Virus record (IMG/VR): IMGVR_UViG_3300023222_000391 | Coordinates: 1 to 41,471 of that record | Strand: one strand, 5' to 3' | Source of the DNA: a virus | DNA length: 41,471 nucleotides | In this document: positions 1,584 to 38,739 of the stretch, in pieces | Numbering within the stretch: the stretch's first letter is position 1 | Layout of the letters: each line of letters opens with the position of its first letter | Program-made: the position numbers and the translations under genes | Notes under the pieces: generated by a model | What the model was told of the DNA's origin: nothing | Databases searched by the model: none | What the model saw: the letters and a program-made list of their open reading frames with translations, nothing else

Positions 1584-1729
1584 ATGAAAACGACATTGAC
1601 GAAATATTCAAACTTGCCACTCTAGTTAAACAAGATAAGGAAGACCTTAAGAAAGAACTGGAAGAAATACGCGACAGTATAAAAAACAAACAAGAAGCCC
1701 TTAGAAAACTATATCAGTTGTTAAGATGA
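1580..1729 (+). CDS. Small coiled-coil protein, 49 aa, before TerL
   Basis: The ATG at 1580 overlaps the preceding stop, and the TGA at 1727-1729 overlaps the ATG of TerL. The sequence (EDLKKELEEIRDSIKNKQEA) is a strong heptad coiled coil. It could be a packaging accessory subunit, but it is too short for a canonical TerS with a DNA-binding domain. Confidence 0.65.
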   Translation: MNENDIDEIFKLATLVKQDKEDLKKELEEIRDSIKNKQEALRKLYQLLR

Positions 1730-3501
1730 GCCTTGAAAATCGCATTACCCAACTAGAGGACGAATACCTGCCAAATGACTCACTGCCTATCTTACCGACT
1801 AATATCCTAAACTGGATAGAAAAGGCAAGACCCAGTATAGGCGGAAAAACTAGAAACTTTAACTTGTATCCGTACTGGATTGATATCTATGAGGATAACC
1901 ACCCTAACATCCTAGTTACAGCAGCCAGGCAGACATTCAAGACAACTGCATGCAGTGATATTATAGCATGTGACGCAACATCAAATAACAACGTAGAAGT
2001 ATCATACATTACAGATAATGAAGCACATAGAACTGCATTTTCCATGCAGAGACTAAGACGAAACACCTTTCTGGAAAATCCCATACTAAAACAATTCCTC
2101 CCACATGGAAGAGCCAGTGTGGGAACAATAAACCTCAATAACGGAAGTGTGATTTATTTACTGACTGATGAAAATGAATACAACCAAGGGGAAGGAAAGT
2201 CCAATTATCGTGTGGCATTGGATGAAGAACAATACCAGACAGTTGAATTTCTCACAAAAATCATGTATACCCTTAGCGCTACCAAAGGAAAAATCATAGG
2301 ATTTGGGATAGGCGGGGAAGCTGGCTCAGAATTTCACAGGTTATGGGAAAGAACAGACCAAAGGGAATGGATATATGATGATTCCTACTGGAGAGAGAAA
2401 CTAAAATTCGACAACAGAGGCAACATCATCAATTCTGACTCTGAGTTAAAATCCATACTAAAAGGCAGATGGGTACCACAAAAACCAGAGAATACACAGT
2501 ATAGAGGATACCATATCCCACAAACTATAGTTCCAACTATTCCCTTGTCAATTACAGACTCTATAGAAAAACATCACGCCCAACCTGAACTATCAATAGA
2601 ATACCAGCAAAAGAATTTCCCAAAATCTATCTTTCTCTCACATGCACTAGCTGAATTCTACAAGGCAGAAAGACGACCAATCACGCCAGAAATGGTATAC
2701 GCTTGCATGCACCCGTATCGATACCTGTCACTATTAAAATCTGAGGAAGTTCGTACTATCAAGGATATCTTTAAGAATGAAGTCAGGATACTAATGGGTG
2801 TTGATTTCGGATCTGGACCTGCATCTAGCAGCACTGTTGTTTCGATATTGCTCAACTGGCGCAAATCTGGAAGATATCAACTGGCTCACATTGAGGCTCG
2901 CCCACAGGAACACCAACTCAACCAATGCCGAGTTCTTGCAGAGCTTGGAACGAGTTACGGAGTGGATCATGGTGTCGGAGATCTCGGCTATGGACAAATA
3001 CAAGTCAAGCTTATCCAAGATGGTGGCACAGATTCACGAGGAAATAAGTTTAATGGATTGGGCAAGAAACGATTCCAAGGCTGTCGCACCATAGGAGACG
3101 AGACCAAGCCCCAAGCCAAATATGTTACAGATACAGACGAGCATGGAACCCAGCTAGGTCGATACCAGATAGACAAGACAACCAGTATCCAGGCATTCAT
3201 AGACAGGATAGGAACTCGAATCCCTCACCCCAATAATACTAGAGAAGAATATTCAAGACCTATCCTAATGATACCATTTAAGAATGAATACGAGACAGAC
3301 TGGCTAGTGAAAGACTTTTGTTCTATTACCAGAAAAGACCTATCCAAAGATCCTGATGTCACTACAGATGAGGATCCTAGGCAGAGAGCTACCAAGTGTT
3401 TTAACCACCCACCAGATAGTGTCATGAGTATCATTTACTGTTTCGTCGCAGACGAAAACTTTGAAGAGAAGGCCTTTAGTATACGAGGAGTTGGCAGATA
3501 A
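1726..3501 (+). CDS. terL: Terminase large subunit (DNA-packaging ATPase/nuclease)
   Basis: A 591-residue packaging motor that docks on the portal and pumps and cuts viral DNA. ATPase part: the Walker A-like motif AARQTFKTT (residues 66-74, Lys72) is of the phage RQxxKT kind, and Walker B is VALDEE (163-168, Asp166-Glu167). Nuclease part, RNase H-like: Asp360 in MGVDFGSG, Asp419 in GVGDLGYGQ and Asp564 in HPPDSVMSI are the expected acidic ligands. The length is normal and the start is coupled to the upstream gene. The last residues (FSIRGVGR) are encoded again in two downstream copies, which suggests insertions at the 3' end of this gene. Virion genes follow. Confidence 0.95.
   Translation: MSLENRITQLEDEYLPNDSLPILPTNILNWIEKARPSIGGKTRNFNLYPYWIDIYEDNHPNILVTAARQTFKTTACSDIIACDATSNNNVEVSYITDNEAHRTAFSMQRLRRNTFLENPILKQFLPHGRASVGTINLNNGSVIYLLTDENEYNQGEGKSNYRVALDEEQYQTVEFLTKIMYTLSATKGKIIGFGIGGEAGSEFHRLWERTDQREWIYDDSYWREKLKFDNRGNIINSDSELKSILKGRWVPQKPENTQYRGYHIPQTIVPTIPLSITDSIEKHHAQPELSIEYQQKNFPKSIFLSHALAEFYKAERRPITPEMVYACMHPYRYLSLLKSEEVRTIKDIFKNEVRILMGVDFGSGPASSSTVVSILLNWRKSGRYQLAHIEARPQEHQLNQCRVLAELGTSYGVDHGVGDLGYGQIQVKLIQDGGTDSRGNKFNGLGKKRFQGCRTIGDETKPQAKYVTDTDEHGTQLGRYQIDKTTSIQAFIDRIGTRIPHPNNTREEYSRPILMIPFKNEYETDWLVKDFCSITRKDLSKDPDVTTDEDPRQRATKCFNHPPDSVMSIIYCFVADENFEEKAFSIRGVGR
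3474..3500 (+). repeat. 27-bp direct repeat, copy A (3' end of terL)
   Basis: Bases 3474-3500 are identical to 3872-3898. The repeat encodes the TerL C-terminus SIRGVGR and the first bases of the stop codon. A diverged third copy lies at 4128-4150. Confidence 0.9.
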
Positions 3502-24717: not shown

Positions 24718-25836
24718 CTATTGTGCAGCTTCTAATGCCGCAACCTTAGCTTCTAAAATCATAATCCTCGCAAGAAGATCTGCAATAGTGACTACTGGTT
24801 CTCCCACAACTGTCAAGTTTAGTGTAAGTGTCGGTGCAATAATATTTCTATCAGTTGGATTATCAAAAGTCTCTATGTTTATTATGTAGTTTCCTGGCTG
24901 AATTGCCCTAAAGTCATACATCAAACTTAATGATTGACCAGATTCAAGAAGGCCTGTTTGTGAGCGTGTCTGAGGTTCAAATCCTACAGTATTTGTCTCT
25001 AAGAGATAATCCTGTTCTCTTGACTGGTCGTTTTCTACACTCACTAGTATCTGAATTGTTTTTCCAGTTTCAACACTAGTCACCTGCTGTCCTGTAACCG
25101 GATCTACAAGTCTGGCATTTTCTACAACGAATACCTCATTTGGTGGAGGTGGTGGAGTTGGAGTAAAAGTAAAATTAGCAGCAGCCGTTTTATTTGCATG
25201 AGTTACTTCTACACTACCTGTGCTACCTTTACTAAAAAATGGAGGCTCAAGAATAAATGTCTCTGAAAATGTATTATTTGATTGAAGTGTTATCTCCCCA
25301 ATACGTGCTATACTATCGTTAGCCTTAACTAAAAAACCTACACCAATACTCTCTACAGAATTATCAATTGTCCCTGAGATTATGACGGTGTCTCCTTCTT
25401 GATATGACTCTTTGTCAAGTGTTACTGTTACCACAATCTCCTCCTCACCTTCTCCAATAAAAATAATTTGTTCACATTCTCTAGGTGCATCACTGATATC
25501 TATATGACAATCATCATTACCCTCTCCTCCAGATATCCCATTACTATCCCCAATACTGGTCAATATTATGTCATCCCCAGTACCACCGAAGATCTTGTCA
25601 AATCCACTACCACCACAGATAGTATCATTTCCTTCCATTCCTCTAATCACATCCTGTCCTCCTAGTCCTAAAATTACATCATCAAATTCTGTACCAATCA
25701 TAATGTCATTGCCTGGCGTGCCTATCATTGTGGCTTCTTTACCAAAACATGTGGTGTGCTCTTCTCCATAAGACATGGAAACAATCCCGCCCAAAACAAC
25801 CGCAGACAGTACAAAGAACAGTGCAAGATATTTCAT
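24718..25836 (-). CDS. Secreted RTX-like calcium-repeat surface protein, 372 aa
   Basis: ATG 25836 gives a signal peptide (KYLALFFVLSAVVLGGIVSM). Residues about 38-92 hold RTX-type nonapeptide repeats (GTPGNDIMIG, GGSGFDKIFG, GGTGDDIIL), which bind calcium in a beta-roll. An Ig-like domain follows (VTLDKESYQEGDTVIISGT), then a Pro linker and a second beta domain. It ends in a short coiled coil (ARIMILEAKVAALEAAQ). This architecture is known from thaumarchaeal surface proteins. It is transcribed against the virion operon and may be a host-derived gene acting at the cell or virion surface. Confidence 0.85.
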   Translation of the reverse strand: MKYLALFFVLSAVVLGGIVSMSYGEEHTTCFGKEATMIGTPGNDIMIGTEFDDVILGLGGQDVIRGMEGNDTICGGSGFDKIFGGTGDDIILTSIGDSNGISGGEGNDDCHIDISDAPRECEQIIFIGEGEEEIVVTVTLDKESYQEGDTVIISGTIDNSVESIGVGFLVKANDSIARIGEITLQSNNTFSETFILEPPFFSKGSTGSVEVTHANKTAAANFTFTPTPPPPPNEVFVVENARLVDPVTGQQVTSVETGKTIQILVSVENDQSREQDYLLETNTVGFEPQTRSQTGLLESGQSLSLMYDFRAIQPGNYIINIETFDNPTDRNIIAPTLTLNLTVVGEPVVTIADLLARIMILEAKVAALEAAQ

Positions 25837-25838
25837 GA

Positions 25839-26024
25839 TTAACACTTTCTCCTGAATGTTAGACAAGTATGATATGAACAACTACATTGACAGCCTTCTT
25901 CTTGAACATGATATGCTCTATCCCAATTAAGAAAATGCTTCCTTAAAATACACCAAACACAGAGATATTCATTCATAACCGTTTGATTAGAATATAATTT
26001 AGTCAATGATTTGGACATCTCCAT
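25839..26024 (-). CDS. Small Cys-rich protein, 61 aa, minus strand
   Basis: It ends 2 nt before the RTX gene start and overlaps the gene upstream. CVWC and CQCSC motifs suggest metal binding. Its N-terminal part (SLTKLYSNQTV) is encoded by 27 bases nearly identical to the start of a plus-strand gene at 35883. ATG 25976 (MNEYLCVWC...) is an alternative start. Confidence 0.5.
   Translation of the reverse strand: MEMSKSLTKLYSNQTVMNEYLCVWCILRKHFLNWDRAYHVQEEGCQCSCSYHTCLTFRRKC
25976..26002 (-). repeat. 27-bp dispersed repeat (26/27 identical to 35887-35913)
   Basis: On the minus strand the sequence is CTAAATTATATTCTAATCAA then ACGGTTA. The plus strand at 35887 has one base different. Both copies are read in the same frame and encode KLxSNQTV. 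Confidence 0.8.
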
Positions 26025-32432: not shown

Positions 32433-32509
32433 AGATCCTGTCAAATCTAATCATATTCTATCAGGGAAATACATACACATTGAGAGACATTGAGCAAGGA
32501 GAGAAATGA
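32429..32509 (+). CDS. Very small coupled ORF, 26 aa
   Basis: TTG start in TTGA overlap and an ATGA overlap with the methylase behind it. MKILSNLIIFYQGNTYTLRD has no motif. Its last bases (GACATTGAGCAAGGAG) are repeated near 32975. Confidence 0.4.
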   Translation: MKILSNLIIFYQGNTYTLRDIEQGEK

Positions 32510-32982
32510 TAATAGATTTATGTTGTGGCATCGGGAGGTTTAAAACACCGGACGAGGAAGTTGTCTCAATAGACATAGACCCCAAAACGAAACCGACAAT
32601 CTGTGCAGACATTAATCATCTGCCATTAAAGCCCAACATGAAAATCAGGTATGTTCACGCCTCCCCCACCTGCACTTATTTTTCAAAGGCCAGACGTTGG
32701 GGAACAGGCTGGAACCCAAAGGGAATAGGGGAATCCTTAAGACTTGTTGCCGCCTGTTATGACGCCTTTGCCTATCTGGGGGCTGAAAACTGTTCCTTGG
32801 AAAATCCTGCCGGAATTGAGGATATTCTGGGCCATAAAATAAAATTCAAGTATGACAAGTATGATATCAAAAATGCCACAACCAACATCTACCTGAACAA
32901 GAAGGCACAAAAACGAGCCGTCATACCACAAGATATACGTCAGGAAATGCTACTCCTGACAAACAGTGAAAACAGACATTGA
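32506..32982 (+). CDS. C5-like DNA methyltransferase, atypical, 158 aa
   Basis: DLCCGIGRF (4-12) is the SAM-binding motif and SIDIDPK the acidic strand. HASPTCTYFSKA (51-62) stands where PCQxFS of C5 methylases is expected, keeping the Cys (56) but with Thr in place of Pro. SLENPAG (97-103) replaces the ENV motif by ENP. The protein lacks most of the target-recognition domain. It could be a minimal DNA methylase or a related base-modifying enzyme. Confidence 0.65.
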   Translation: MIIDLCCGIGRFKTPDEEVVSIDIDPKTKPTICADINHLPLKPNMKIRYVHASPTCTYFSKARRWGTGWNPKGIGESLRLVAACYDAFAYLGAENCSLENPAGIEDILGHKIKFKYDKYDIKNATTNIYLNKKAQKRAVIPQDIRQEMLLLTNSENRH

Positions 32983-33374: not shown

Positions 33375-33380
33375 CAATGT

Positions 33381-33388
33381 TTAATTAG
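33381..33388 (+). promoter_or_regulatory. Second-class promoter of the Cdc48-N gene
   Basis: TTAATTAG lies 28 nt before ATG 33409. The surrounding AATGTTTAATTAGTTATACA matches the stretch before 27398 in 16 of its first 18 bases. Confidence 0.5.
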
Positions 33389-33408
33389 TTATACATGTAC
33401 CATACACT

Positions 33409-33951
33409 ATGAATACAACAATTTCAACAGTGATTGAAAGTGTCAAGGTGTATGAAGCCTATACAAGAGACGTTGGAAGAGGAGTTATCAGAATCGATTA
33501 TGACACTATGGACAAACTAGGATGCTCAACAGGGGATATTTTAGAAATTAAGGGTAAAAGAAGAACAGTTGCAAAATGTCTTCCATTATATCCATCTGAT
33601 GAATGCAAGAACATGTGTAGGTGTGACGGTATGACAAGAACCAATCTAGGTATAGCCATAGGAAATACAATAACAGTAAAGAAAATTATTCCACATTCTG
33701 CACAACAAATCCAGTACAATTTTGTAGAGAACACACTCCCGATTGATGATAGGTATCTTACAGACGCCTTTGAAAGCATTCCGTGCATGAAAGGAGATAT
33801 ACTTCTCATAGCATATTTTGGATCTAGAGTACCACTCAAAATATTATCGACTAAACCAAAAGGTTGTGTAGTCATAACCACAAATACTATTTTCAATTCA
33901 AAACCTGATTTAAACAAAGTTATCTGTCCTACTTGTGGGCAGGAGGTTTGA
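33409..33951 (+). CDS. Stand-alone Cdc48/VAT N-domain with zinc knuckle, 180 aa
   Basis: Residues 11-92 (VKVYEAYTRDVGRGVIRI, GDILEIKGKRRTVAK, RTNLGIAIGNTITVKK) match the double-psi beta-barrel of archaeal Cdc48/VAT. Residues about 105-162 (GDILLIAYFGSRVPLKIL, TKPKGCVVITTNT) match its second, clam-like subdomain. The protein then ends in VICPTCGQEV, a CPxC knuckle, instead of the linker and two AAA ATPase domains. In cellular Cdc48 this domain recruits adaptors and substrates for unfolding. A viral copy without ATPase could compete for, or redirect, host adaptors (inference). It has its own promoter. Confidence 0.9.
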   Translation: MNTTISTVIESVKVYEAYTRDVGRGVIRIDYDTMDKLGCSTGDILEIKGKRRTVAKCLPLYPSDECKNMCRCDGMTRTNLGIAIGNTITVKKIIPHSAQQIQYNFVENTLPIDDRYLTDAFESIPCMKGDILLIAYFGSRVPLKILSTKPKGCVVITTNTIFNSKPDLNKVICPTCGQEV

Positions 33952-33954
33952 CAA

Positions 33955-34149
33955 ATGACTGAAGCTACAAAACTCATATCTGATCTGCTTGGAGATGGTG
34001 TGACTAGTAGAAGAATAATACTAGACACGATGGAAACTGACTTGGAGTGCGGCCGTAAAAACGCAGAAGACATAATGAAAATGTATCGAAGGATTCTGGT
34101 GTTAGACGTCTCAACACTGTCAGATAGAACACAGAGGAAATTGAAATGA
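33955..34149 (+). CDS. Small helical protein behind the Cdc48-N gene, 64 aa
   Basis: It begins 3 nt after the Cdc48-N stop, so it is co-expressed and may be a partner. All-helical (EATKLISDLLGDGVTSRRII, RKNAEDIMKMYRRILVLD), perhaps a three-helix bundle. The stop overlaps the next ATG. Confidence 0.65.
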   Translation: MTEATKLISDLLGDGVTSRRIILDTMETDLECGRKNAEDIMKMYRRILVLDVSTLSDRTQRKLK

Positions 34150-38376: not shown

Positions 38377-38480
38377 AACTAGAACTAAACACAGAATCAC
38401 TCCTAGGAGGCTTTATCCTTGGACTTATCTTTGCGGGAATTGCACTGGTATCTATGGGGTGTAAAGGACTGCAGATATGA
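38373..38480 (+). CDS. Small membrane protein, 35 aa
   Basis: Residues 9-29 (SLLGGFILGLIFAGIALVSM) form a membrane segment followed by GC. The context LVSMGC is not a classic lipobox. ATGA coupling on both sides. Confidence 0.55.
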   Translation: MKLELNTESLLGGFILGLIFAGIALVSMGCKGLQI

Positions 38481-38584
38481 GTTGGTACGATCCTCAACAG
38501 CACCATACCAAACTGGAATACCTCATTGTCAGTTTCGCCCTTGGAGTCGGCGTGACACTAATTACATTATTAATTGTACCATGA
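38477..38584 (+). CDS. Small membrane protein, 35 aa
   Basis: Polar start (MSWYDPQQHHTKLE) then a membrane segment (YLIVSFALGVGVTLITLLIV). Paired with the preceding membrane peptide; they could form a holin-like pair. Confidence 0.55.
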   Translation: MSWYDPQQHHTKLEYLIVSFALGVGVTLITLLIVP

Positions 38585-38739
38585 AATGCAATTGTAAAAA
38601 ATTTGATTGTCCAGAATGTTGGGATTATTCCACTCACGGCTTTTGTAAAACATGCAATTCCCCGTTTGGAGTTGGGGATCTTGATTGGGGAACGTGTCCA
38701 CGATGTGGCTCCAAAGATATAGAGGAAGGATTAGAATGA
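38581..38739 (+). CDS. Zinc-ribbon protein, 52 aa
   Basis: CNCKKFDCPEC, FCKTCN and CPRCG give eight cysteines, enough for two zinc sites (double ribbon, rubrerythrin-like knuckles). ATG 38581 fits the ATGA coupling better than the upstream in-frame ATG at 38419. Confidence 0.65.
   Translation: MKCNCKKFDCPECWDYSTHGFCKTCNSPFGVGDLDWGTCPRCGSKDIEEGLE

Follow-up and report, generated by a model that had tools for sequence, protein, structure and literature searches.

A motor-less Cdc48 N-domain encoded by a tailed virus of likely Nitrososphaeria hosts: a possible competitor of host Cdc48

The linear virus record IMGVR_UViG_3300023222_000391 of IMG/VR, analysed over its full 41,471 bases (hereafter the window), encodes at 33409..33951 on the plus strand a protein of 180 amino acids (aa) that by profile, model and alignment is a genuine Cdc48 N-domain, standing alone and without an AAA module. 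From the sequence, the family and origin of this domain are established, as are the loss of the motor, the strong retention of the first subdomain (Nn), the loose retention of the second (Nc), the new cysteines and tail, and the position of the gene in the accessory half of the genome. We tentatively propose that this captured host domain binds the ligand of Nn and so may compete with the Cdc48 motor.

Identity, fold and origin of the viral domain

The reading frame on the plus strand is intact, with its stop after residue 180. Pfam searches placed CDC48_N on residues 13-93 (E 7e-26, 90.6 bits, cut-off 35.1) and CDC48_2 on residues 116-162 (E 1e-8, 35.0 bits, cut-off 22.4), which bears out a preliminary description of the protein, made from the DNA letters, as a Cdc48/VAT N-domain with both subdomains; all the motifs quoted there are found in it. 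CDC48_N is the top family and no other Pfam family comes near, the UFD1_N1/N2 profiles of UFD1 adaptors giving no match (UFD1_N2 reaches E 0.11 and 13.0 bits, where the cut-off is 37). Sequence matches in the PDB are the archaeal Cdc48 double-psi barrels and VAT-N, followed by p97 across both subdomains. An AlphaFold2 model built on a 27-row alignment has a mean predicted local distance difference test score (pLDDT) of 84, with the two-subdomain fold ordered and the tail (residues 169-180) disordered, and Foldseek searches of the PDB with this model ranked p97 N-domains first (E ~1e-13, template modelling (TM) score 0.75-0.79). Model and PDB matches together give the kidney-shaped double-psi barrel plus Nc fold, so that structure prediction, proposed at the outset as a check, returned a Cdc48-type fold. 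The protein has no PHROG match and no INPHARED relative.

The D1 and D2 modules of the Cdc48/VAT AAA unfoldase are absent, as had been described: the open reading frame (ORF) stops at residue 180 and the next one, of 64 aa, has no Pfam match. That a complete cdc48 gene had been broken up by a sequencing error or frameshift was considered and rejected, there being no D1 or D2 downstream in any frame and a single CDC48_N match in this viral record.

Relatives of the domain were searched for in 84,980 prokaryote genomes, and nearly all of the best 80 loci are Cdc48 genes of Nitrososphaeria, 52-59% identical to the viral protein over residues 1-163; genes cut by contig ends aside, the best relatives are full length (~730 aa). 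Nitrososphaeria carry several Cdc48 paralogues, of which the one with the signature EAYTRDVGRGVARIDYD is the closest kin, and in trees the viral protein lies on a long branch inside the clade of this paralogue, in support of the thaumarchaeal link suggested earlier. Matches on plasmids are distant Cdc48 N-domains (28-32% identical to the viral protein), mostly annotated as CDC48/AAA ATPases.

Unequal conservation and the possible function of the protein

Using the Pfam matches and the alignment, we delimited Nn, the double-psi beta-barrel, as residues 12-93 (33442..33687, +) and Nc as residues 94-163 (33688..33897, +). Among 25 host N-domains the two subdomains are roughly equally conserved, with 65/82 and 52-53/70 alignment columns at ≥90%, the level taken to define host-conserved sites. 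The virus retains 55/65 of these sites in Nn and 24/53 in Nc (Fisher p 1e-5), and matches the host majority at 63/82 Nn residues and at 25 of the 69-70 Nc residues. Two full-length paralogues showed no Nn/Nc contrast (p 0.16 and 0.62), whilst five cellular AAA-less copies, L132 (p 0.024), L162 (0.016), L155 (0.026), L163 and L159, lean towards Nn as the virus does (overall p 0.016-0.043). The test takes sites as independent and was picked once the alignment had been viewed, and we regard the contrast in the viral protein as supportive rather than as proof. The unequal retention argues that the ligand of the first subdomain matters most; with one subdomain near-unchanged and the other released, the protein would point to the place where an important ligand binds and would be a natural bait for finding it.

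Under the competitor reading, a tailed virus would have captured the N-domain of the EAYTRDVGRGVARIDYD Nitrososphaeria Cdc48, or received it by descent from an AAA-less form residing on a chromosome or a different mobile element, and would have retained the gene minus the D1 and D2 motor rings. The protein would keep binding the ligand of the host first subdomain, be it a substrate, a tag or an adaptor, and because it carries no motor this binding would draw the ligand away from Cdc48 and the 20S proteasome, as a competitor or dominant negative. Such diversion would protect viral or host targets during infection, with the second subdomain and tail free to change or recruited to a viral partner. 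If this is true, a virus would be manipulating the proteasome pathway of archaea. Infection of Methanosarcina by MetSV up-regulates host Cdc48 (PMC9694453), so the protein can be of importance when archaea are infected.

Several points weigh against the competitor reading. The divergence of Nc could be a loss of function instead of a new function, and the gained cysteines suggest a metal or disulphide property that a simple decoy would not need. The exact viral gene was found as one sequence only, so selection on it is not directly measurable, and the virus-host link is based on the terminase and the captured gene. Finally, we know of no partner of any archaeal Cdc48 N-domain, and of no ligand for that of Nitrososphaeria in particular. 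The adaptor trap, the dominant negative and the recruiter offered in the preliminary description are all possible mechanisms.

The main rival, which we consider unlikely, is a UFD1-like recruiter: the free N-domain would bind a target and deliver it to host Cdc48, the virus thereby redirecting degradation. Eukaryotic UFD1, of the same fold and architecture, delivers substrates to Cdc48 (PMC4192671), in a viral structure library the model finds UFD1-like proteins of giant viruses near the top of its matches, and the viral protein has a tail, residues 164-180 (33898..33948, +), that replaces the N-D1 linker and AAA modules and is modelled as disordered. However, this tail is merely ~17 residues long, no SHP-box-like segment was seen in it by eye, and the sequence falls in CDC48_N rather than in the UFD1 family. 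The tail also holds a CPTC pair (33925-33936, +), as first described, but the zinc knuckle proposed for it is not supported: the CCHC pattern CX2CX4HX4C is missing, the single pair being followed by no H and C, and the pLDDT of the tail is ~38.

A re-purposing of the double-psi barrel, with metal bound through new cysteines and an action on nucleic acid or some other viral function that has nothing to do with Cdc48, appears improbable. Cysteines number nine in the viral protein against one in the host domain, and those gained within the domain itself (C39, C66, C70, C72, C126 and C153) had escaped the preliminary description; C66-x3-C70-x-C72 (33604..33624, +; G, I and I in the host) form a cluster inside Nn that is a possible metal or disulphide site, and the early region encodes many other small Cys-rich proteins. 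Against this, the Nn surface has stayed very close to that of its host counterpart (77% identity), and a new role would not need such likeness. Moreover, the early-gene proteins of the virus have a high cysteine content overall (2.4%, late genes 0.7%), and composition may account for some of the gain.

It is very unlikely that the free domain acts as a passive chaperone, binding unfolded viral proteins and helping them to fold: Golbik et al. in 1999 reportedly found folding activity for isolated Thermoplasma VAT-N, but such a role leaves unexplained both the retention of Nn without that of Nc and the cysteines. That the gene is a passenger of recent capture, a host gene cut short and as yet functionless, is also very unlikely. 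This would agree with the lack of the gene in terminase-related viruses, its single instance and the frequency of AAA-less fragments in hosts; against it, the ORF has stayed intact among tightly packed genes despite long divergence, Nn retains 85% of its host-conserved sites, and the Nn/Nc contrast is significant where an unconstrained gene would diverge evenly.

Motor-less N-domains elsewhere and the genome of the virus

The protein is not one of a kind, and the impression of uniqueness left by the preliminary description does not hold: AAA-less copies occur in cells and in a second, unrelated virus, and UFD1 has the same fold. Cellular copies were found by CDC48_N searches reporting open-frame length, followed by reading of the DNA, in at least 14 Nitrososphaeria genomes (G003, which is Ca. 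Nitrosotalea devanaterra, G101, G137, G313, G337, G219, G139, G281, G112, G076, G084, G124, G075 and G039), a number that is not a frequency, as part of these genomes were chosen for high CDC48_N counts; within one family, 2 of 46 genomes hold clear cases. No D1 sequence lies within the stretches fetched around these loci, and four of the 14 (G112, G139, G076 and G084) have megabase-scale contigs. Some copies consist of the N-domain only (~160-200 aa), others carry a further 90-110 residues, and several have no detectable CDC48_2. The ORFs include L086:9141-9656, L134:5574-6356, L147:4153-4938, L152:4260-5087, L155:4222-4743 and L158:3815-4405. Four further candidates were not accepted as AAA-less copies, being split genes or cut by contig ends: in L133 a D1 ORF follows the N-domain immediately, L164 and L165 have AAA attached and are truncated where their contigs end, and L166 has AAA downstream. 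No description of this Nitrososphaeria family was found in the open-licence papers searched.

L132, the copy in G101 and the sole one of its type in the family sample, comes from a contig of 6.3 kb that also carries genes for ParB and HNH proteins. As parB-type genes characterise the integrative-conjugative elements of thaumarchaea (PMC6563490), this copy may belong to a mobile element. One tree grouped it with the viral protein at support 92/91 and a second placed the two near each other with lower support; a sister relation is not firm, being absent from the second tree, with an approximately unbiased (AU) test p of 0.505 and long branches. In L162:2760-4697 the AAA-less gene lies 52 bases downstream of a 464-aa ORF that looks transposase-like by eye, and is possibly an insertion-sequence passenger; L163, a further copy from that genome, has different neighbours. 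A distinct architecture is seen in L149:1938-2762 and L150:4002-4820, ORFs of ~272 aa in which the first Cdc48 N subdomain alone precedes a conserved C-terminal region (FILSGSCIDFEKER...).

The second virus, of archaeal type, is represented by the IMG/VR contigs L167 and L168, which are one lineage since they are 100% identical along the 20.5 kb fetched. Its stand-alone gene (L167:9992-10630) encodes an AAA-less N-domain protein of 212 aa (CDC48_N 85.7 bits, CDC48_2 43.4 bits) with its own C-terminal extension, adjoined by a dCMP deaminase gene and with a helicase gene nearby. Apart from the N-domain gene no genes common to these contigs and the window were detected, and the domain looks like an independent acquisition. 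The lineage was found by a viral scan whose alignment included thaumarchaeal orphans, earlier scans with single-protein motifs or mixed archaeal/bacterial alignments having given no match; L169, from an EGKG pattern scan, was rejected as a chance match within a repetitive protein.

Motor-less N-domains in two unrelated viruses and in the genomes of hosts would represent a recurring, putative route by which the protein-disposal machinery is interfered with or borrowed. That they form a decoy system of ammonia-oxidising archaea, as recurrent and horizontally moving competitors of the archaeal Cdc48-proteasome with at least two independent viral uptakes, is conceivable but doubtful.

The window contains a large terminase subunit gene (1726..3501, +) that marks the record as that of a tailed virus with a link to Nitrososphaeria. 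Seven other IMG/VR contigs carry relatives of this terminase (identity 58-78%), three of which are ~40 kb long and match the window across its structural half; no CDC48_N domain was found in these three, some of which may be fragments. The search of related viral contigs suggested in the preliminary description thus drew a blank among terminase relatives, the L167/L168 lineage being unrelated. Terminase homologues also occur in 22 of 400 Nitrososphaeria genomes (thirteen matches near full length, identity 42-53%), some deep within long contigs (e.g. G052:C3 in 451 kb). The host is likely a member of the Nitrososphaeria, given these homologues and the thaumarchaeal origin of the Cdc48 domain.

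The N-domain gene lies in the accessory (early) half, in which related viruses differ, among HNH (30685), Dam (31181) and small Cys-rich genes. The 64-aa gene (33955..34149, +) starts 4 bases past the stop of the N-domain gene and is probably co-transcribed with it, and an A+T-rich, TATA-like stretch identified by eye (TTTAATTAGTTATACAT; 33380..33396, +), 13-29 bases upstream of the ATG, could be the promoter of a leaderless archaeal transcript. Adjoining the Dam-type methylase and HNH nuclease genes, 32506-32982 encodes 158 aa resembling a shortened cytosine-C5 methyltransferase (LCCGIGRF, ASPTC.YFS) with no PHROG or Pfam match. The product of 38419-38739 (106 aa) contains 11 cysteines and matches no Pfam family. 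The sole long minus-strand ORF (24718-25881, -; 387 aa) carries RTX calcium-binding nonapeptide repeats (Pfam E 5e-13) and directly follows the last tail-fibre-like gene.

Comparison with known systems

The domain, its fold and free forms of that fold, as UFD1, are already known. The preliminary suggestion that no archaeal virus system of this kind had been described holds in a weak sense, AAA-less Cdc48 N-domains in archaeal viruses being described in none of the open-licence papers searched; CDC48-family ATPases have been noted as virus- or plasmid-associated in archaeal genome islands, the entries being ATPases (PMC4158269).

With the N-domain of full-length Nitrososphaeria Cdc48, of the VAT/p97 family, the viral protein shares both subdomains and the fold, but it is without the N-D1 linker, D1 and D2, its Nc is strongly diverged, and it has eight more cysteines and a short new tail. 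The AAA-less ORFs of Nitrososphaeria (among them L132, L086, L134, L158 and L162) have the same architecture, but are cellular or on other elements and are without the CPTC tail and the additional cysteines; unlike the viral protein, some such ORFs have C-terminal extensions of 90-110 residues with a coiled-coil look. The L167/L168 protein is likewise virus-borne and AAA-less with Nn and Nc, but is 34% identical to that of the window and differs in its C-terminal extension and neighbours. The UT3 domain of UFD1, in eukaryotes and giant viruses, is also this fold outside an AAA protein, although UFD1 belongs to a different family and carries Cdc48-docking and NPL4-binding segments.
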